From the IMG/VR virus record IMGVR_UViG_3300031837_000140, positions 1 through 27,732 of that record: a stretch of DNA of 27,732 nt. One strand, given 5' to 3'. Of this stretch, positions 179 through 8,337 are shown piece after piece (position 1 is the stretch's first letter; every line of letters begins with the position of its first letter). A program made the position numbers and the translations under genes. A model generated the notes under the pieces. It was not told the DNA's origin and did no database searches. It saw only the letters and a program-made list of their open reading frames with translations. The DNA is from a virus.

Positions 179-188
179 GCAACAGGGC

Positions 189-214
189 AAAGGCGCTTCG
201 GCGCCTTTGTTTTT
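189..214 (+). terminator. Rho-independent terminator before the preQ0 operon
   Basis: AAAGGCGC (189-196), loop TTCG (197-200) and GCGCCTTT (201-208) form a perfect eight-pair stem with the very stable UUCG tetraloop. G and five T residues (209-214) follow. This is a textbook intrinsic terminator. It also argues against any start codon for queE upstream of about position 215. Confidence 0.9.
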
Positions 215-257
215 GATTGCTCCGCAACCCGCCTCACGGCCACTTATCGGAGTCTGC

Positions 258-1001
258 ATGCAGCTGAACAGTCAGCCCATGGAACACATTGATGTCGCGT
301 CGGGAGACGTACTTGATGTCCATTCTATCTTCTACACCCTGCAAGGTGAAGGCCCCTTCACCGGCCGCCCCGCAGTGTTCATTCGCTTGGCGGGCTGCAA
401 CTTGCAGTGTCCAGCCTGTGACACGGACTACACCAGCGGGCGTGAGAAGCGAAGCGTGACCAGCATCATTGCCGGCGTACACAACGCGGCACCCGACAGG
501 GCAGCGCGACCACTTGTGGTCATCACGGGCGGCGAGCCTTTCCGTCAAAAGATCTACGGCCTGTGCCACGACCTTCTGCGCGAAGGCTACACGGTGCAAA
601 TCGAAACGAATGGCACGTTGCCGCCACCCAACCCGGTATTCGGAGATCTCTGTTCGACCGACTTGACGGACGAGAACGTGATCTTCATCGTATGCAGCCC
701 CAAGACGGGTCGCGTCAATCGATACCTGGAACCACTGGTGGCCGCGTACAAGTACGTTCTCGATGCCGACAGCGTGAACGATGACGACGGTCTGCCGATT
801 CTGGCCCTGGGCCACACGGCCCACCCGCACGTCGCCCGGCCGCCTGTTGGCTTCCTGGGGCCGGTGTACTTGCAGCCGGCCGACATGCAAGATGAGGCAC
901 TGAACAAGCGCAACCGTCAAGCCTGTGTCATCCTCGCTATGAACGCACCGGACCGTTTCACGGTTCAGCTTCAGACACACAAGATCCTCAATCTCGAATA
1001 A
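258..1001 (+). CDS. queE: 7-carboxy-7-deazaguanine synthase (radical SAM), QueE
   Basis: QueE converts 6-carboxy-tetrahydropterin to 7-carboxy-7-deazaguanine, the ring-contraction step of preQ0 synthesis. The 247-residue product has the QueE signature FYTLQGEGPFTGRPAVFIR, then the radical SAM cluster motif C47-x3-C51-x2-C54 (AGCNLQCPAC) and the SAM-binding TGGEP at 90-94. The length is normal for the family. I chose ATG 258 because CGGAG lies five bases upstream at 248-252. The frame stays open further upstream, but an earlier start would fall inside the terminator at 189-214. It is the first gene of the queE, gat-queC, queD, folE, dpdA run and its stop lies nine bases before the next start. 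Confidence 0.93.
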   Translation: MQLNSQPMEHIDVASGDVLDVHSIFYTLQGEGPFTGRPAVFIRLAGCNLQCPACDTDYTSGREKRSVTSIIAGVHNAAPDRAARPLVVITGGEPFRQKIYGLCHDLLREGYTVQIETNGTLPPPNPVFGDLCSTDLTDENVIFIVCSPKTGRVNRYLEPLVAAYKYVLDADSVNDDDGLPILALGHTAHPHVARPPVGFLGPVYLQPADMQDEALNKRNRQACVILAMNAPDRFTVQLQTHKILNLE

Positions 1002-1010
1002 GGTCACCAC

Positions 1011-2411
1011 ATGTGTTCAATCATTGGTGCAGTCTTGTACCGTCAAAGCGGGCTGCCTTGGGAATTGGAATCGCTGCTGCGTGTCACCTGGGGTAACAGC
1101 CTGCGCCGGGGTCGCGACGGGCGCGGGTTTGTGGCTCGTACTACCGATATCGAAGGCCGCGTCAAAATAGGGTTGAAACGGTCCGTCGTTCGGCGCGAGC
1201 ATTTCCCGGACATCTACCCGCACATCCCGCCGTTCACCACGTCGTTTGACATGGTGGGCAACCAGCGGGCGGAGCCGACTACCGAGTTTGTCCAAGACAA
1301 GCAAGAGTTCGATCAGCAGCCGTATTCGCACAGTGGTTGGCATGTTGTGCACAACGGCACTATCGCCAACGACAAAGAGCTGCGTACGGGTGACGTGCCC
1401 ACAAGCATCGACAGCGCGGCTATCGTCGAAGTGCTGGCAAGCGTGTCGCCGAACACAACGGCCTTCGCCAGTGCGATCCGGAAGTTGAAGGGTTCGTATG
1501 CAATCCTTGCGATGCATGACAGCCTGCCGGGCGTCATGTTTTCAGCCTGTAACTACCGCCCTATCTGGTACGTGCAGACGCCAAGCGGCTTTGTGTTTGC
1601 TTCAGAACGCGGTGCATTCCCACAAGGTTACGTTCCGCAGATGCTGCGACCGTACAGCGTGGCGACGTTCGGGTGCACGGGCACGGTCGAACGCGTTGCG
1701 CTGCTGGAACCTGTCGTTGACGGCGAAGCCCGCAAATCGCTCAAGACAGCGCTGGTCGTGTGCAGCGGCGGCCTGGACAGTGTGGTTAGCGCGGCGGCCA
1801 TGCAGAAGCGGGGCTATGAGCTTCACCTGATTCACTTTCAATACGGGTCGCGTGCGCAAACGCCCGAGCTAGAAGCGGTGCGCAAAGTGGCAAAGCACTT
1901 GGGGGCTGACTTCGACATCGTGCCTCTGCCGATTTACCGCAAGCAAGACAGTCCGCTCCTGGACCCCGACAGCAAGGTGGCAGGCGGCGAGGCGGGCGCC
2001 GAATTCGCGCACGAGTGGGTGCCGGCACGGAATACGGTGCTGCTCGCCATGGCGGTCGCATTTGCCGAAGCCAGGGGCTACGAAACGATCGTGCTGGGGA
2101 ACAACCTGGAAGAAGCCGGGGCGTACCCCGACAACGAACCGGAGTTCATTGCCCGCTGGAACGATCTGCTGCCGTTCGCTGTGGGTGACGGCAAACGCAT
2201 GCGCATCGAGATGCCTGTCGGCAACATGATGAAGCACGAGATCGTCGCACTGGGGCACGAGTTGGACGCGCCCATGGACATGACGTGGTCGTGCTACAGG
2301 GCCGGGGCGCTGCACTGCGGGTCGTGTGGGCCGTGCTACATGCGTCGGAAGGCGTTCGCGATCAACGGGCTTCCCGAAGTGATCAACTACCAGGATGAGC
2401 AAGATGTATAG
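1011..2411 (+). CDS. queC: Fused class II glutamine amidotransferase and 7-cyano-7-deazaguanine synthase (Gat-QueC)
   Basis: QueC makes preQ0 from 7-carboxy-7-deazaguanine using ATP and ammonia. This 466-residue protein is about twice the usual QueC length because an Ntn-hydrolase amidotransferase domain precedes it. Met-Cys at the N-terminus supplies the nucleophile Cys2, with RGRDGRGF (33-40) and HNGTIAN (114-120) completing a class II site. The QueC part has the ATP-binding PP-loop SGGLDS (252-257) and a zinc site at C428, C436, C439 and C442. Gat-QueC fusions are known in Crenarchaeota and in phages such as Escherichia phage 9g, where they go with formation of the amidine base archaeosine (G+) from preQ0. 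I infer the same here. The AAGGT ribosome site overlaps the queE stop, and the 3' end overlaps queD by 17 bases. Confidence 0.93.
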   Translation: MCSIIGAVLYRQSGLPWELESLLRVTWGNSLRRGRDGRGFVARTTDIEGRVKIGLKRSVVRREHFPDIYPHIPPFTTSFDMVGNQRAEPTTEFVQDKQEFDQQPYSHSGWHVVHNGTIANDKELRTGDVPTSIDSAAIVEVLASVSPNTTAFASAIRKLKGSYAILAMHDSLPGVMFSACNYRPIWYVQTPSGFVFASERGAFPQGYVPQMLRPYSVATFGCTGTVERVALLEPVVDGEARKSLKTALVVCSGGLDSVVSAAAMQKRGYELHLIHFQYGSRAQTPELEAVRKVAKHLGADFDIVPLPIYRKQDSPLLDPDSKVAGGEAGAEFAHEWVPARNTVLLAMAVAFAEARGYETIVLGNNLEEAGAYPDNEPEFIARWNDLLPFAVGDGKRMRIEMPVGNMMKHEIVALGHELDAPMDMTWSCYRAGALHCGSCGPCYMRRKAFAINGLPEVINYQDEQDV

Positions 2412-2850
2412 ATCGACTAAGACGTATGGGCATGACCTGGGCCTGTCCGCCTGCTTCCGCCAGTGGCGAGCTCAGTCGCACTGCAACCTTTTGCATGGGT
2501 ACGCGCTGGCGTTTACCATCACGTTCGACTGTGACAAGCTTGACGAAAATGGGTGGGTGATGGACTTTGGCGCACTGAAGCCTGTCAAGACGGAGATCGA
2601 ACGGCTATTTGATCACACTGTGCTTGTTGCGTGCGATGATCCTGAACTGAATCGATTCGTGGCGCTGAACAACGCCGGTATGATTCAGTTAGTCGCTGTT
2701 CAGCGCACGGGGTGCGAAGCTTTTGCCAAGCTGGTATTCGACAACGTGACCACATGGCTGCGCAGCTACCAGAAGGGTCGTGTGCGAGTGGTGTCGGTTG
2801 AATGCAAGGAACACGGCGCGAACAGCGCCATCTACATTGGAGGCAATTGA
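2395..2850 (+). CDS. queD: Divergent 6-carboxytetrahydropterin synthase (QueD family)
   Basis: QueD turns dihydroneopterin triphosphate into 6-carboxytetrahydropterin, the substrate of QueE. The 151-residue product aligns by eye with E. coli QueD: the catalytic Cys (C30, in HCNLLHGY), the DFGALK segment, the Asp-His pair in LFDHTVL and the late Glu in VECKEHG are all present. Two of the three zinc histidines are not. The usual first His is Cys (GLSAC, C20), and the usual HGH is HGY (H34, Y36). H29 beside the catalytic Cys might compensate. The gene overlaps gat-queC by 17 bases and folE by one, which suggests translational coupling. ATG 2404 is an alternative start three codons in. Position between queC and folE makes the assignment firm despite the odd site. 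Confidence 0.85.
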   Translation: MSKMYRSTKTYGHDLGLSACFRQWRAQSHCNLLHGYALAFTITFDCDKLDENGWVMDFGALKPVKTEIERLFDHTVLVACDDPELNRFVALNNAGMIQLVAVQRTGCEAFAKLVFDNVTTWLRSYQKGRVRVVSVECKEHGANSAIYIGGN

Positions 2851-3431
2851 TGAACGCACCGTACGAGAAGCCGCCGACTGTCAATGAGCAGATTATCTAT
2901 GACGTGCTGGCGCACCTGTGCGGCGAGAACCCCGAACGGGGTGGTCTGAAGGACACGCCGGCCCGTGTGGTCAAGGCGTGGGAATTCTGGACAAGCGGCT
3001 ACGGCATGAACGCGGCAGACATCCTCAAGACGTTTGAGGACGGTGCCGAGGGTTGCGACCAGATGGTCATTCGCAAGGACATCCCGTTCTACTCGCACTG
3101 CGAGCACCACATGGCCGCCATCTTCGGAACATGTACCATCGCGTACATCCCGAACGGGCGTGTGGTTGGCCTGTCAAAGATGGATCGCCTGTGCGAGATG
3201 TTCATGCGCCGGCTGCAAGTACAGGAAAGAGCGACCAACCAGATCGCCGATGCGATGATGGAGCACCTCATGCCGACCGGCGTGGGCGTGTACATCAACG
3301 CCCGTCATATGTGCGTGGAATCGCGTGGCGTGCGTAACGGCAACAGCGCGACAATCACGACGGCACTGCGCGGTGCGTTCCTCAACGAGCCGGCAACAAG
3401 AGCAGAGTTTCTCGCGGCAGCTCGCGGGTAA
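2850..3431 (+). CDS. folE: GTP cyclohydrolase I (FolE)
   Basis: FolE opens GTP to dihydroneopterin triphosphate, the first step of both folate and 7-deazaguanine synthesis. The 193-residue product has the zinc and catalytic motif FYSHCEHHM (C84, H86, H87) and the later zinc Cys in ARHMCVESRG (C155). The length matches bacterial FolE. I chose ATG 2850 over an upstream in-frame start at 2802 because GGAGG lies at 2839-2843 with six-base spacing and the start overlaps the queD stop (TGATG). A phage copy makes preQ0 synthesis independent of the host's folate-linked GTP cyclohydrolase. Confidence 0.94.
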   Translation: MNAPYEKPPTVNEQIIYDVLAHLCGENPERGGLKDTPARVVKAWEFWTSGYGMNAADILKTFEDGAEGCDQMVIRKDIPFYSHCEHHMAAIFGTCTIAYIPNGRVVGLSKMDRLCEMFMRRLQVQERATNQIADAMMEHLMPTGVGVYINARHMCVESRGVRNGNSATITTALRGAFLNEPATRAEFLAAARG

Positions 3432-3440
3432 AATGGCGCC

Positions 3441-4364
3441 ATGAACCTCTACTGCGCTGCTGTCTACACGAATAACTATAGAGCCGGACAGCGGCAGTAC
3501 CAGCATTTCAACGAGCGTGAACGCGAGTGTGTCGACGGTGTTCCCCACATTCTCGAATCGTTTCACTACGTGGGCAAGCAGAGTTTCGTTGACGATATGC
3601 GAAAAGATGGAGCGAAGATCTTCCTGGACTCCGGCGCCTTCTCGTCCTTCACCCAAGGCGTTGCGCTCGACGTGCGCGTGTACTGCGATTACATCAAGCG
3701 CAACATGGATATCATTCGCTTCGACGATGGGGTGATGATGGCGTCCGTGCTCGATGCGATTGGCGACCCATTGGAGACGTACCGCAACCAGCTTTGGATG
3801 GAAAGCCTGGGCGTGCGCCCGCTGCCTTGTTTCCATGCCAACGAAGACGAACGGTACCTCGAACACTATGTCAAAAACTACGAGTACATCACACTCGGCG
3901 GTATGGTGGGTGCCAGTTCGAAGCAACTGATGAATTGGCTGGACCGTATCTGGGACCGGTACCTTGTGGACGGCGCAGGGCGCCCGCGCTGCAAGGTGCA
4001 TGGGTTCGGTATCACAGCCGTGCCAATTATGCAGTCATACCCTTGGTGGAGCTGCGATTCGTCGTCGTGGATTCAATCGACCTCGTTCGGCACCATTGTG
4101 ACACCTGACTGGGGCCCGATCGCAGTGAGCGACAAGTCGCCCAGCCGGCACGACGCCGGCCAACACATCACGACGTTTAGCGAAGTGGAGCGCCAAGCCA
4201 TAATTGCCAAGCTGGCCGAGCAGGGCTACGACTGGGAGCGTCTTGCTACGGTGTACCAGTCGCGGGCGGCCTTCAATTTATGGGCATACTGCGAGTTGAA
4301 CAAACGAATGAACGTTGAGAACGACTACACGCAGATGACGCGCGTCAAACAGGAACTGTTCTGA
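3441..4364 (+). CDS. dpdA: Phage DpdA-like DNA guanine transglycosylase
   Basis: DpdA proteins are relatives of tRNA-guanine transglycosylase that exchange guanine in DNA for a 7-deazaguanine base such as preQ0. The 307-residue product has the LDSGAFSSF motif (Asp63), matching the active-site DSG of the TGT family, and a second Asp206 in WWSCDSSSW, the usual place of the other catalytic Asp in phage DpdA. TLGGMVGAS (151-159) is a typical glycine-rich barrel loop. The short length and lack of an obvious zinc-binding domain fit the compact phage branch rather than the larger bacterial Dpd-island protein. It begins nine bases after folE, and a complete preQ0 supply lies directly upstream. The ribosome site is weak, so translation may be coupled. 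Confidence 0.87.
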   Translation: MNLYCAAVYTNNYRAGQRQYQHFNERERECVDGVPHILESFHYVGKQSFVDDMRKDGAKIFLDSGAFSSFTQGVALDVRVYCDYIKRNMDIIRFDDGVMMASVLDAIGDPLETYRNQLWMESLGVRPLPCFHANEDERYLEHYVKNYEYITLGGMVGASSKQLMNWLDRIWDRYLVDGAGRPRCKVHGFGITAVPIMQSYPWWSCDSSSWIQSTSFGTIVTPDWGPIAVSDKSPSRHDAGQHITTFSEVERQAIIAKLAEQGYDWERLATVYQSRAAFNLWAYCELNKRMNVENDYTQMTRVKQELF

Positions 4365-4365
4365 A

Positions 4366-4566
4366 ATGAGCACCGTACCAATCGTCGCCAGCACCAAGCC
4401 CGACCCGAAGATTTATTGCAACGATGGGTGCAAGCGCGGCATGTTGCCAACTGAGATCGAATCGTCTGGCTGGCAGCTTCTCCAGATTACTCAGCGGTAC
4501 AGGTGCGTAGACTGCTGCCGCGAGCTGCGTGAAGCAAACGAAAGGCACGGAAATGGAAACCGATAA
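4366..4566 (+). CDS. Small cysteine-rich (zinc-ribbon-like) protein
   Basis: The 66-residue product has two cysteine pairs, YCNDGC (C18, C22) and RCVDCC (C47, C50, C51), separated by about 25 residues, the layout of a treble-clef or zinc-ribbon mini-domain. Its start lies one base after the dpdA stop, so it is probably co-translated with it, and its end overlaps the next gene by 14 bases. No specific family was recognised. A nucleic-acid-binding or protein-adaptor role is possible from the zinc-finger layout alone. Confidence 0.65.
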   Translation: MSTVPIVASTKPDPKIYCNDGCKRGMLPTEIESSGWQLLQITQRYRCVDCCRELREANERHGNGNR

Positions 4567-4843
4567 GCAACTGCGTGATCTGAAGATACAAAAACTTCAG
4601 GACCGCAGCCGCGAACAGAAACGCCGCATTGCCGCCGGCGAAATGCTTGTCTGTACGCAAGACAATCCTATTTCTGGCGAACGCGACGCGATGACTGGCA
4701 AGCCTGTTTATCATAAAGACGCTAGGCCAGGGCCGGACCACGACATACTTGCTATGACGTCAATCTCGGTCTGCCCGCACTGTAAAACCAACGTCACGAT
4801 CCATCGCAGGTTCTGGGATTACGAAAAGAAAGATTGGAGATAA
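4553..4843 (+). CDS. Small hypothetical protein with coiled N-terminus and CxxC
   Basis: The 96-residue product starts with a highly charged helix of about 30 residues (rich in Lys, Arg, Gln and Asp), continues with a Cys (LVCTQ), and ends with VCPHCKTNVTIHRR, a CxxC knuckle that with the earlier Cys or His could bind zinc. I prefer ATG 4553 to an in-frame GTG at 4529 because it is the stronger codon and has AAAGG upstream. It overlaps the previous gene and stops one base before the clamp start. Function unknown. Confidence 0.6.
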   Translation: METDKQLRDLKIQKLQDRSREQKRRIAAGEMLVCTQDNPISGERDAMTGKPVYHKDARPGPDHDILAMTSISVCPHCKTNVTIHRRFWDYEKKDWR

Positions 4844-4844
4844 C

Positions 4845-5804
4845 GTGCTGGCTGAGCTTAAGTTTGTGATGGGAGCGGTGTCCAAGAAGGATCTGATTCC
4901 GTCGATGGCCCACTTCGCGATCGACGGGGGCCGCGTACGGGCTTACAACGGCGTCGTTGCGCTGTGCAGCCCCATAGCCCTTGATCTGGAGTGCAAGCCC
5001 CGTGCAGAGCCCATGGTGCGAGCCATAGGCCATTGCAGCGAGACGGTAACGCTGGCCCGCACGCCGGCCGGCAAGCTAAGCATTAAGAGCGGCACCTTCC
5101 GCGCTCTAATCGAGTGCCTGCCAGACGAACAAGTGACACCACATGTCGAGCCTGAAGGTGATGTGGTGGAGATCAACGGCGCGGCGCTGCTAGAAGCATT
5201 CAAGGCGTGCTCGCCCTTCGTCGGCAACGACGCTTCCCGTGCCTTCAGCAACGGCATCCTTCTTAAGGAGGGTTCCGCCTTTGCGACGAACAACGTGATG
5301 GCGGTGCAATATTGGGTCGGCCACGCGCTGCCCCATGTGGTCAACATACCCATGAAGTGCGTGCAAGAAATGGTTCGCATTGACGAAGCGCCTGTCAGCG
5401 CGTTGTTCGCGGCCAATAGCATCACTTTCCACTACACGGGTGACCGTTGGATTCGCACGCAACTGCTGAACGTCGAGTGGCCCGACATCACGAAGATCTT
5501 GGATCGCGAGTCTAACGCCACACCGATCGACAAGGAACTGTTTGCAGCCATCGCCAAGGTCAAACCATTCCTTGACAAGTACGGCCGCATTTATTTCCAC
5601 GAGGGTGCTGTGTCGACACATGCTGACCACTCCGAGGGCACGTACGTGGAAATTCCTGGGTTCGCGAACGCTGGCATCTACCGTCACGAATACCTTGCGC
5701 TGCTGGAAGACACGGCAGAACGCATCGACTGGACAACGTACCCCGACCCTTGCATGTTCTTCGCTCCGCGCCTGCGTGGCGCCATCATCGGAGTTCACAA
5801 ATGA
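4845..5804 (+). CDS. DNA polymerase sliding-clamp-like protein (DnaN-type processivity factor)
   Basis: The 319-residue product resembles a shortened bacterial beta clamp. It has the segment KLSIKSGTFRALIECLPDE, which matches the strand pattern of clamp domain 1, the repeated strand and helix rhythm of a multidomain clamp, and a C-terminal AIIGVHK. It starts with GTG 4845, with GGAGA five bases upstream. Two genes downstream is a family B polymerase, the expected partner. Bacterial beta is about 366 residues, so one subdomain may be trimmed. No clamp loader is visible in this window. Assignment rests on motif resemblance and position, so a related processivity or fidelity factor is possible. 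Confidence 0.7.
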   Translation: MLAELKFVMGAVSKKDLIPSMAHFAIDGGRVRAYNGVVALCSPIALDLECKPRAEPMVRAIGHCSETVTLARTPAGKLSIKSGTFRALIECLPDEQVTPHVEPEGDVVEINGAALLEAFKACSPFVGNDASRAFSNGILLKEGSAFATNNVMAVQYWVGHALPHVVNIPMKCVQEMVRIDEAPVSALFAANSITFHYTGDRWIRTQLLNVEWPDITKILDRESNATPIDKELFAAIAKVKPFLDKYGRIYFHEGAVSTHADHSEGTYVEIPGFANAGIYRHEYLALLEDTAERIDWTTYPDPCMFFAPRLRGAIIGVHK

Positions 5805-5926
5805 TTCGACAAGCCATTCCCCGGCCTGTGCAACAGCCGTCACCCGTGTGCCCGTGGTGCGGTTGCACCTTCAAGTTCGTCTCATACGGACGCCATAAAG
5901 AACACTGCCCCAAGCGGCCGAAGTGA
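5801..5926 (+). CDS. 41-residue zinc-finger mini-protein between clamp and polymerase
   Basis: ATG 5801 overlaps the clamp stop in an ATGA arrangement, and the TGA at 5924-5926 overlaps the polymerase GTG start (GTGA). The 41-residue product has a disordered Pro/Gln-rich first third and then CPWCGCTF followed by YGRHKEHC. The pattern C17-x2-C20-x11-H32-x3-C36 could hold one zinc ion. The double overlap argues that it is translated and couples clamp and polymerase synthesis. Function unknown; a polymerase or clamp accessory is a guess. Confidence 0.65.
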   Translation: MIRQAIPRPVQQPSPVCPWCGCTFKFVSYGRHKEHCPKRPK

Positions 5927-7959
5927 GAAAAGACGCAATCGGCTTTTTCTGGGCCGATCACGAGAAAGAGAAGGCGGCTAAGAAAGTCGTCGAAAAGCGT
6001 ACGCCCCCCGCCCGCACCTGGGAAGCTGCGGGCTACCTGCCGGGGCTTGAAGAGGCGCAGCGCTTCAATGTCGATCTGTTTACGTGGGAAGAGTTGTTCG
6101 CGGCTGCAATCAACCGTGAAGAGCTATTGTTCGACTTAGAGGTCTACCCGAATTATTTTCTGGCGGCCTTCTGTTCATACAAGTCCGGCAAAGTGATCTA
6201 TTGCGAAGGCACACCAGACAACCCGCTGGATGTGCAGAAGTTGCGTTGGCTGATGGAGACGTTTACCACCGTCGGCTTCAACTCGATCCCGTTCGACATG
6301 CCTATCACCGCAATGGCGGTGGCCGGTTGCACCAATACGCAACTGAAGCAAGCGACGAACATGATCATCGTCGAAGGCATGCAGCGCCAAGACGTGCTGA
6401 AGCACTTCAAGGTCAAGAAGCTTAAAGGTTGTGACCACATTGATCTGATTGAAGTGGCGCCGCTCAGTGCCAGCCTGAAGATCTACGGCGGCCGGCTGCA
6501 TGCGCCTAAGATGCAAGACTTACCGTTCCATCCGGACACAGAACTGTCGCCCGAACAAATTGCTATCGTTCGTTTCTACTGCGTCAATGACCTGACGACT
6601 ACCGGTTTCCTGCGCAAGTGCTTGGACGAAGCGGTGCAACTCCGTGTTCAGATGAGTAAGGAATACTGTGTAGACCTGCGTAGCAAGTCAGACGCACAGA
6701 TTGCCGAAGTAGTGATTGCCGACGCCGTGGGCCGCATGAACGGGTACCGGCCCACCAAGCCAAGCATCGCAATCGGCACGACGTATTACTACGACGTGCC
6801 GCACTTCTTGCAGTACAAGTCGGCACTCATGCAATGGGTGCTGGAACAAGTGCGTCAGACGCCTTTCGTTGTCGGCGAACATGGTTCCATCAACCTGCCG
6901 CAGCACTTGGCAGACATGGAAGTCCGCATTGCCGACGGCGTATACCGCATGGGGATTGGGGGCCTGCACAGCAGCGAGCACACGGTCAGCTATAAGACCG
7001 ACGACACGCACAGCCTGCACGACTTCGATGTCGTGTCGTTCTACCCCAAGATCATCATCAACCAAGGCTTGTACCCAGAGCACTTGGGCAAGGCGTTCTT
7101 GCATGTGTTCAAGGACCTTGTTGACCGCCGCATTGCCGCTAAGGCTGCCGGGCGCAAGGGTGAAGCGAACAGCCGCAAGATTATTATCAATGGAACCTAT
7201 GGCAAGCTGGGGTCGAAGTACAGCATCTTGTATGCGCCGAAGCTGCTAATCCAAACCACTCTGACGGGTCAACTGGTGCTGTTAATGCTTATTGAGCGTA
7301 TGGAGATGGCAGGTATTCGTGTGGTCAGCGCGAACACCGACGGCATTGTGCTGCACTGCCCGCGCGACAAGCACGAGCTTATGCATGCCATCGTGACGCA
7401 GTGGGAACGCGACACCAACTTCGAGACCGAAGAGACCAAGTACGCGGCCCTGTACTCGCGTGACGTGAACAACTACATTGCGGTCAAGCTGGACGGTACC
7501 ACCAAGAACAAGGGGGCGTTCTTTAACCCGTGGACGGCCGACACCAAGGACCCCACCGAGAAGCTGAAAAAGAACCCGTCGACGCAGATTGCGATCGAGG
7601 CCGTTGAAGCATTCCTTGTCAAGCAGACTCCGATCATTGACACTATCAAGGCGTCAACTGACCCGCGCAAGTTCGTTAGCGTGCGCACTGTCAACGGCGG
7701 CGCAGTGCATGATGGCGAGTACCTAGGCAAGTCTGTGCGTTGGTACTACTCCACTACGCCACGCGGCGAGATGGTGTACGCAAAGACCGGAAACAAGGTG
7801 GCGCGCAGCGATGGGGCCTGCCAACTGCTGACTTTGCCGCAAGCTTTGCCGCAAGATGTGGACTTTGACTGGTATGAACGGGAAGCGTTTGACATGCTTT
7901 CGGATCTTGGCTACTCGGCAGGTAGTTTGAGCGTTAAGGATAGTTTGCAACCGCACTAA
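5923..7959 (+). CDS. Family B-like DNA polymerase with 3'-5' proofreading exonuclease
   Basis: This 678-residue protein is the phage replicative polymerase. The exonuclease domain is complete: Exo I LFDLEVYPN (D71, E73), Exo II VGFNSIPFD (N120, D125) and Exo III FYCVND (Y219, D223). The polymerase domain has motif A FDVVSFYPKI (D369), motif B RKIIINGTYGKLG (K419, N423, Y426, G427) and motif C SANTDGIVL (D473). Motif C reads NTDG where most family B enzymes have DTDS, so only the essential second Asp is kept. The GTG start at 5923 overlaps the stop of the preceding 41-residue ORF, consistent with re-initiation. The length is short for family B but usual for phage versions. Confidence 0.9.
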   Translation: MRKDAIGFFWADHEKEKAAKKVVEKRTPPARTWEAAGYLPGLEEAQRFNVDLFTWEELFAAAINREELLFDLEVYPNYFLAAFCSYKSGKVIYCEGTPDNPLDVQKLRWLMETFTTVGFNSIPFDMPITAMAVAGCTNTQLKQATNMIIVEGMQRQDVLKHFKVKKLKGCDHIDLIEVAPLSASLKIYGGRLHAPKMQDLPFHPDTELSPEQIAIVRFYCVNDLTTTGFLRKCLDEAVQLRVQMSKEYCVDLRSKSDAQIAEVVIADAVGRMNGYRPTKPSIAIGTTYYYDVPHFLQYKSALMQWVLEQVRQTPFVVGEHGSINLPQHLADMEVRIADGVYRMGIGGLHSSEHTVSYKTDDTHSLHDFDVVSFYPKIIINQGLYPEHLGKAFLHVFKDLVDRRIAAKAAGRKGEANSRKIIINGTYGKLGSKYSILYAPKLLIQTTLTGQLVLLMLIERMEMAGIRVVSANTDGIVLHCPRDKHELMHAIVTQWERDTNFETEETKYAALYSRDVNNYIAVKLDGTTKNKGAFFNPWTADTKDPTEKLKKNPSTQIAIEAVEAFLVKQTPIIDTIKASTDPRKFVSVRTVNGGAVHDGEYLGKSVRWYYSTTPRGEMVYAKTGNKVARSDGACQLLTLPQALPQDVDFDWYEREAFDMLSDLGYSAGSLSVKDSLQPH

Positions 7960-8016: not shown

Positions 8017-8337
8017 ATGCAACTGACTAACGCAACCGAAAAGCGCCTCGAACGAGCTGTCATGGACCGGCTCAAGCATGTCATGGAACCTGCCGTGCGC
8101 TCGGCGCTCATGGAAGTTTTGCACGGCGGGCGCCGTACGCAGAACGGAGTGCAAGAACCTGCGCCCGGCAAATGCCGCGACGTGTGGGATGCCCTGGACG
8201 AATTTGCCAACCCTGTTCAAGTGAGCCTCGCTGACGCGCTGGCCGTTGCCATGGACAAGGGTTTCAACCCGAATAACGCGCGCATCGAGTTCTACCGCTG
8301 GCGTACCTTCAACGGGTTCGGCAAGGAAACACACTGA
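8017..8337 (+). CDS. Hypothetical 106-residue protein
   Basis: The start ATG 8017 has GGAGA at 8006-8010. The predicted product is mostly helical and charged, with an N-terminal amphipathic helix, a central basic segment (GGRRTQNGVQEPAPGKCRD) and a C-terminal helix rich in Ala and Asp, ending YRWRTFNGFGKETH. No family was recognised. It lies 57 bases after the polymerase and is the first of three small genes separated by hairpin-bearing gaps. The ribosome site and codon use make it a likely real gene. Confidence 0.6.
   Translation: MQLTNATEKRLERAVMDRLKHVMEPAVRSALMEVLHGGRRTQNGVQEPAPGKCRDVWDALDEFANPVQVSLADALAVAMDKGFNPNNARIEFYRWRTFNGFGKETH

Follow-up and report, generated by a model that had tools for sequence, protein, structure and literature searches.

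A predicted 9g-type deoxyarchaeosine pathway with an unusual QueD in a putatively contractile-tailed phage

The IMG/VR virus record IMGVR_UViG_3300031837_000140, analysed here over its entire 27,732 bases (hereafter the window, whose positions serve as coordinates throughout), carries five adjacent genes of 7-deazaguanine metabolism, queE, gat-queC, queD, folE and dpdA. This locus raises the question of whether they form a working pathway that would replace part of the guanine of the phage DNA by deoxyarchaeosine (dG+), given a QueD that is unlike the kind characterised in phage 9g. Our analysis indicates that they very probably constitute a complete and functional dG+ pathway of the 9g type, borne by a phage with a contractile tail. 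The cassette adds a further case to a known system, and its unusual part is QueD.

The cassette and its predicted chemistry

The original prediction, made from the sequence alone, placed FolE, QueD, QueE, Gat-QueC and DpdA side by side on one strand between positions 258 and 4364, and both family matches and coordinates bear this out. The genes form a tight operon, in which gat-queC shares 17 bases with queD, and queD 1 base with folE, the other two junctions being gaps of 9 bases each:

258-1001, plus strand: QueE (phrog_2076, 2.9e-49; Pfam Radical_SAM, 30 bits)
1011-2411, plus strand: Gat-QueC, predicted preQ0 synthase with a class II glutamine amidotransferase domain, archaeosine-forming (phrog_10428, 4e-193)
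2395-2850 (start at 2395 or 2404), plus strand: QueD of a second subfamily, CxxxHGY (Pfam PTPS, 1.7e-19)
2850-3431, plus strand: FolE, predicted GTP cyclohydrolase I (Pfam, 5.4e-64)
3441-4364, plus strand: DpdA of the 9g type, predicted DNA-guanine transglycosylase (phrog_887, 6.5e-85)

The kinship of the five proteins to their families is in little doubt, the family evidence being far beyond chance. With regard to the curated NCBIfam cut-offs, Gat-QueC and FolE score above them, and QueE, QueD and DpdA below. QueE reaches 89.6 bits with the best NCBIfam QueE model (cut-off 240) and narrowly passes the Pfam Radical_SAM cut-off of 29.5 bits; it retains the CX3CX2C cysteines of radical S-adenosylmethionine enzymes (residues 47-54) and is 46-53% identical to six phage QueE proteins. 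Gat-QueC, with 466 residues and 52-57% identity to five phage homologs, matches Pfam QueC (2e-56), GATase_7 (5e-8) and TIGR00364 (150.8 bits, cut-off 150.3). Its motifs, shared with five phages, are intact, namely the MC start providing Cys2, HNGTI, SGGLDS (252-257), VPARN (337-341) and a four-Cys motif (428-442). PMC13329287 lists the QueC motifs, with a canonical zinc motif that is one residue longer; the shorter form of the window is also found in 9g. FolE obtains 202 bits with TIGR00063 (cut-off 181.6) and displays HCEHH at 83-87. DpdA is one of the weaker points of identification, with no Pfam match and only 16 of 200 bits with the NCBIfam DpdA model. It carries the motifs FLDSGA (61-66) and SCDSSSW (204-210), as well as His187, which aligns with His196 of 9g, the histidine named in PMC6884629. 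An AlphaFold2 model of this protein (predicted local distance difference test score, pLDDT, 89.2) is structurally similar to tRNA-guanine transglycosylases, with Z 18.8 across 257 residues at 3.2 Å, which points to the fold of these enzymes. A PDB sequence search with the single window DpdA or the single window QueD returned nothing useful, but one with a profile of 57 QueD sequences did. The window thus combines a DpdA with the His and Asp motifs, the Gat-QueC fusion, FolE and QueE with their motifs and a QueD-type gene, as a 9g-type cassette does. Purifying selection acts on all five genes: compared with G002, a relative whose DpdA is 85% identical, the ratio of nonsynonymous to synonymous substitution is 0.105 for QueE, 0.179 for Gat-QueC, 0.118 for QueD, 0.114 for FolE and 0.058 for DpdA, values that are rough because synonymous sites are near saturation.

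In the proposed pathway, FolE would convert GTP to dihydroneopterin triphosphate, QueD would lead from there to 6-carboxytetrahydropterin, and QueE to 7-carboxy-7-deazaguanine. Gat-QueC would form preQ0, and its glutamine amidotransferase domain would serve to make archaeosine (G+), the amidine, while DpdA would exchange guanine in the phage DNA for the modified base, part of the guanine becoming dG+, which would block many host restriction enzymes. The last steps may run either way round, preQ0 being inserted and then amidated, or G+ being made first.

This cassette should make dG+ because it is kin to those of 9g and Vid5. The folE, queD and queE genes of 9g complement mutants of E. coli. 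When its gat-queC and dpdA are expressed together, dG+ takes the place of about 9-18% of the G in plasmids from wild-type E. coli and of 5.5-9.2% in those from a queC deletion strain, with partial protection from EcoRI (PMC6884629). In 9g DNA, 25-27% of G is replaced, and this DNA withstands about 71% of a panel of over 200 enzymes (PMC5567051), whereas dG+ amounts to 7.55% in Vid5 (PMC8306585); the DNA of Pseudomonas phage MiCath is not cut by EcoRI, BamHI or EcoRV (PMC10710427). Gene content, order, motifs and identity to the 9g-type cassette therefore lend support to the earlier proposal that dG+ would stand in for part of the guanine and shield the phage from restriction. The pathway offers simple tests, a queuosine gel shift and EcoRI resistance. 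The share of G replaced in this phage is not predictable.

The search for further modification genes could be extended beyond the window, as G001, a 63,707-base IMG/VR contig, is the same phage: the stretches compared differ at 0 of 6,582 and 0 of 296 bases, and at 1 of 300 at the very start. The two ends of G001 share 145 bases with a single mismatch, and the contig therefore most likely maps the complete genome, of about 63.6 kb. The reported lack of QueF holds for both the window and the whole 63.7-kb contig, in which the sole PF14489 match lies inside FolE. QueF as a second enzyme of the cassette was rejected, since this match falls within FolE by position in the window and also in three relatives. 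Whole-record family searches of G001 gave no match to YhhQ or to DUF5591, which we take to be part of ArcS. Controls for the QueF, YhhQ and DUF5591 searches matched in 8, 9 and 3 of 14 genomes, respectively.

A second kind of QueD

The window QueD had been described as divergent, and it is indeed only 22-23% identical to the QueD proteins of 9g, PaMx25, Vid5 and CAjan, against 47-57% for those of MiCath, R7M and ZHS. The protein matches Pfam PTPS well (70.4 bits, cut-off 22.4), but carries CNLLHGY in place of the canonical CxxxHGH motif and obtains 47 bits with TIGR03367, whose cut-off is 89.25. Residue conservation was assessed in 57 sequences of this CxxxHGY kind, the profile of which was aligned to E. 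coli QueD. Residue 21 aligns with the first histidine of the canonical zinc-binding triad and is F in 50 of the 57 and His in none; Tyr36, aligned with the third histidine, is Tyr in all of them. Cys30, His34, Asp73, His74 and Glu139 are invariant, His140 is present in 56 sequences, and position 29 is occupied by His (51) or Asp (6). We take Cys30, Asp73, His74 and Glu139 to align with the catalytic residues of QueD. As a substitute zinc ligand, His13 was rejected: it is invariant in 11 phage or virus sequences, but occurs in only 39 of the wider set of 57. The AlphaFold2 model (pLDDT 95.3) has the QueD fold, with Z 14.1 to E. coli QueD (4ntk) and Z 17.0 to 3jyg. It likewise matches 7v0f with Z 14.1, the structure of QueD2, a zinc-regulated second QueD of some bacteria (PMC9508795); in the profile alignment 7v0f has HGH where the window has HGY. 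On this evidence the window protein is probably a genuine QueD whose metal site is altered, and we infer that it is active.

The two kinds of QueD were sought in 21 whole virus records, among which the window, G001 and G002 represent one clade. Ten records carry the CxxxHGY kind (E 1.2e-41 or better), nine the 9g kind (E 1.4e-14 or better), and two, both from actinophages, have weak QueD matches only; strong matches to both kinds are found in none of the 21. Weak matches to the CxxxHGY kind (type B) in CA8, VPv62 and PaMx25, and to the 9g kind (type A) in MiCath, fall on the one QueD gene of each phage. In the same way, the type A flags at 12 of 80 cellular loci sit on the open reading frame (ORF) that bears the type B flag, and the 27 type A flags among 80 viral contigs represent a raw count. 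On a mostly unresolved tree of 17 DpdA proteins, from which RHEph04 (1 of 18 rows) was left out as it is annotated as a hypothetical protein only, the QueD type changes five times on the best tree and the well supported branches force one change, 173 and 152 of 500 shuffles being as low in such changes.

It could be argued that the CxxxHGY protein is not a 6-carboxytetrahydropterin synthase, the host supplying this step and the gene doing something else, a view that we consider unlikely. The 57 sequences all have other residues at two of the three zinc-histidine positions of the canonical enzyme (21 and 36), and the literature searched yielded no experimentally tested member of the subfamily; on the other hand, the invariance of Cys30, Asp73, His74 and Glu139 in the same sequences argues for a conserved function of the QueD type. 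The genomic neighbourhood also bears on this question. At 80 cellular-genome loci of CxxxHGY QueD, with flanks of up to 6 kb, some of them shortened by contig ends, FolE was found in 36, QueE in 23, QueC in 18, and QueE together with QueC in 16, which links the gene to folE, queE and queC, while 38 loci, in keeping with the alternative, had none of the three in their flanks and one was without even a QueD match. When 20 of the 80 genomes were tested, 8 possessed another TIGR03367-type match, as the alternative would allow, but in the other 12 the single such match was, by coordinates, the CxxxHGY gene; many of the cellular genomes are drafts. These 12 comprise six Euryarchaeota, three SAR86, two Maricaulis and one Caulobacter, and in the six Euryarchaeota queE, queC and folE share the locus. 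In phages the gene occupies the QueD slot, none of the records described above having strong matches to both kinds, with three of the ten CxxxHGY records belonging to the window clade. The CxxxHGY QueD is most simply read as acting in preQ0 synthesis.

In five loci from Caulobacter, Brevundimonas and Maricaulis (L093, L112, L115, L118 and L127), the CxxxHGY QueD stands by itself, none of QueE, QueC and FolE being matched in its flanks. Another locus, L087, binned as Verrucomicrobiales, combines QueE, QueC, CxxxHGY QueD and FolE with a strong DpdA (511 bits), and is therefore probably a phage contig.

We can further propose, with the case for and against about evenly poised, that the CxxxHGY QueD represents a widespread second 6-carboxytetrahydropterin synthase, present in phages, alphaproteobacteria, SAR86 and Euryarchaeota, which would have lost two zinc histidines and either rebuilt its metal site (His34, His or Asp at position 29, and His140 being candidates) or become zinc-free, and which would swap with the canonical enzyme in the same slot of the dG+ phage operon. 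A member of a zinc enzyme family with two of its ligands gone is the useful new point of this locus.

Points against the pathway and other outcomes

Several points weigh against a working dG+ pathway. The phage is known from sequence alone, and the chemistry, the product and the protection are carried over from characterised relatives. Its QueD is without two of the three canonical zinc histidines, unlike the kind tested in 9g, and falls below the TIGR03367 cut-off, yet the functional 9g QueD misses that cut-off as well (63.1 of 89.25 bits). MiCath DNA is fully cut by HaeIII, NdeI and RsaI and partly by BstXI, and the study gives no chemical identity for its modified base (PMC10710427). MiCath has the CxxxHGY QueD and partly resistant DNA, but its host may supply the QueD step. 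Lastly, predictions of this type have not always held: Streptococcus phage Dp-1, predicted to contain dPreQ1 or dG+, was reported to have dPreQ1 and no dG+, and nt-1, predicted to contain dG+, had more dPreQ0 than dG+, both phages using QueF-L and ArcS, not Gat-QueC (PMC6884629).

The nt-1 result favours a further outcome, in which the cassette works but an intermediate, dPreQ0 or dADG, is the main base, the amidotransferase step being weak or DpdA preferring preQ0. The 9g DpdA expressed alone does insert preQ0, up to 0.3% of G, but with gat-queC present nearly all of the plasmid modification is dG+ (PMC6884629), and in Vid5, which has Gat-QueC and a 9g-type DpdA, the 7.55% of dG+ compares with about 0.005% of dPreQ0 (PMC8306585). 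Since the window Gat-QueC retains Cys2 as well as the amidotransferase motif HNGTI, such an outcome appears very unlikely. That the cassette serves host transfer RNA (tRNA) by providing more queuosine precursor, and not phage DNA, a role proposed for phages with preQ0 genes but without DpdA, is almost certainly wrong, since the window has a 9g-type DpdA, and the 9g dpdA and gat-queC fail to complement tgt and queC mutants, respectively, but together modify DNA (PMC6884629).

Genomic setting and relatives

The cassette is preceded by a possible terminator and followed by replication genes in a conserved neighbourhood:

179-220, plus strand: strong hairpin with a UUCG loop and a 3' T run, a possible terminator directly upstream of queE (fold energy)
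4845-5804, plus strand: sliding clamp of the phage replisome (phrog_947, 5.7e-65)
5923-7959, plus strand: DNA polymerase of the phage replisome (phrog_1252, 1.2e-200; no Pfam match)

The region 176-222 folds with -23.4 kcal/mol (z -4.3), a value equalled by none of 200 shuffles. A consensus scan for promoters and terminators gave no excess over shuffles, and the hairpin is not among its listings. In PaMx25, annotated terminators are present just upstream of queE. Between dpdA and the clamp gene lie two short frames (4366-4566 and 4529-4843) without a Pfam or PHROG match, and small frames are found at this place in MiCath and Vid5 as well. The polymerase is 53-59% identical to those of Pseudomonas phages JG054, JG012, NP1 and PaMx25. 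A C-terminal domain matching phrog_11298/18634 is shared by three separate genes of this phage, at 8017-8337 of the window and at L002:4181-5167 and L002:6055-6714.

Outside the window, 20 ORFs of G001 were scanned, one of them straddling the window start. They include a terminase, a portal, a DNA ligase, a DUF3987 protein, an AAA_24 ATPase, a Cas4-domain exonuclease, a helicase, a MazG-like protein and the thymidylate synthase ThyX (L017:10474-11235, plus strand; Pfam Thy1, 5.1e-38), and one has weaker head-protease matches.

On the minus strand of the window lie genes for a tail sheath (phrog_205, 5e-110), tail assembly chaperone, tape measure, baseplate hub and wedge, and major head protein; the virion should therefore be contractile-tailed. 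The nearest sheaths are those of Edwardsiella phage ZHS (54%) and then Burkholderia phage Magia (49.6%). Searched against the 21 virus records, the window sheath matches strongly in the window itself, G001, G002 and ZHS, with two weak matches in RHEph04. The Queuovirinae are siphoviruses. The window resembles them in its early region, the block from queE to the polymerase being in the conserved order, and departs from them in its sheath, their tails being non-contractile.

At the DNA level the phage is remote: with the first 24,000 of the 27,732 bases as query, megablast matched PaMx25 alone, over 404 bases at 76.5%. At the protein level, tblastn detected relatives of DpdA in 228 of 50,697 phage records, and in 153 of these the match spans at least 80% of it; identities reach 68% in MiCath, 64.5% in Vid5, 62.6% in VPv62 and 62.3% in 9g. 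Gat-QueC matches 232 records, 64 over at least 80% of its length. Six IMG/VR records, including the window, have this kind of DpdA, and four of them have Gat-QueC over its length; of the remaining two, G003 has a 30% match to the QueC part only, and G004 (20 kb) has no Gat-QueC match. Small extra ORFs apart, the order queE, gat-queC, queD, folE, dpdA, clamp and polymerase recurs in 9g, MiCath, PaMx25, Vid5 and R7M, an additional 762-base ORF lying between the QueE-type gene and gat-queC in 9g.

Among these phages, Enterobacteria phage 9g (Nonagvirus) has the same five functions, with 62% identity for DpdA and 51-54% for Gat-QueC. It is filed in the Queuovirinae, however, has no match to the window sheath, and possesses a canonical CxxxHGH QueD that is 23% identical to that of the window. 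Pseudomonas phage PaMx25 (Nipunavirus) shares the gene order and a Gat-QueC that is 55-57% identical, but it too has a canonical QueD and no match to the window sheath. Edwardsiella phage vB_EpM_ZHS has the closest tail sheath (54-55%) and carries FolE, QueC, a DpdA-like gene and a CxxxHGY QueD, while an 'organic radical activating enzyme' is its candidate QueE. In this phage, unlike in the window, the 7-deazaguanine genes are scattered (L024:8844-15679 and 29288-29785), DpdA is only 35% identical, and QueC, with 294 residues by annotated coordinates against 466 in the window Gat-QueC, has therefore no room for a fused amidotransferase domain.

MiCath (OP882271), the nearest relative for which a restriction test is published, agrees with the window in cassette order, QueD kind, a similar early region and a DpdA that is 68% identical. 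It has a contractile tail, its own annotated sheath and baseplate genes lying on the opposite strand from the cassette, and a myovirus shape by electron microscopy (PMC10710427). It differs in that the window sheath has no counterpart in the MiCath record at E 0.001, and in a Gat-QueC that is only 52-55% identical. The combination of a contractile tail with a 9g-type cassette is already in print, because MiCath has both; the present phage, with its overlapping and probably complete genome, would join MiCath as a contractile-tailed carrier of the 9g-type dG+ pathway, which suggests that this pathway may travel with the replication block between tail types.

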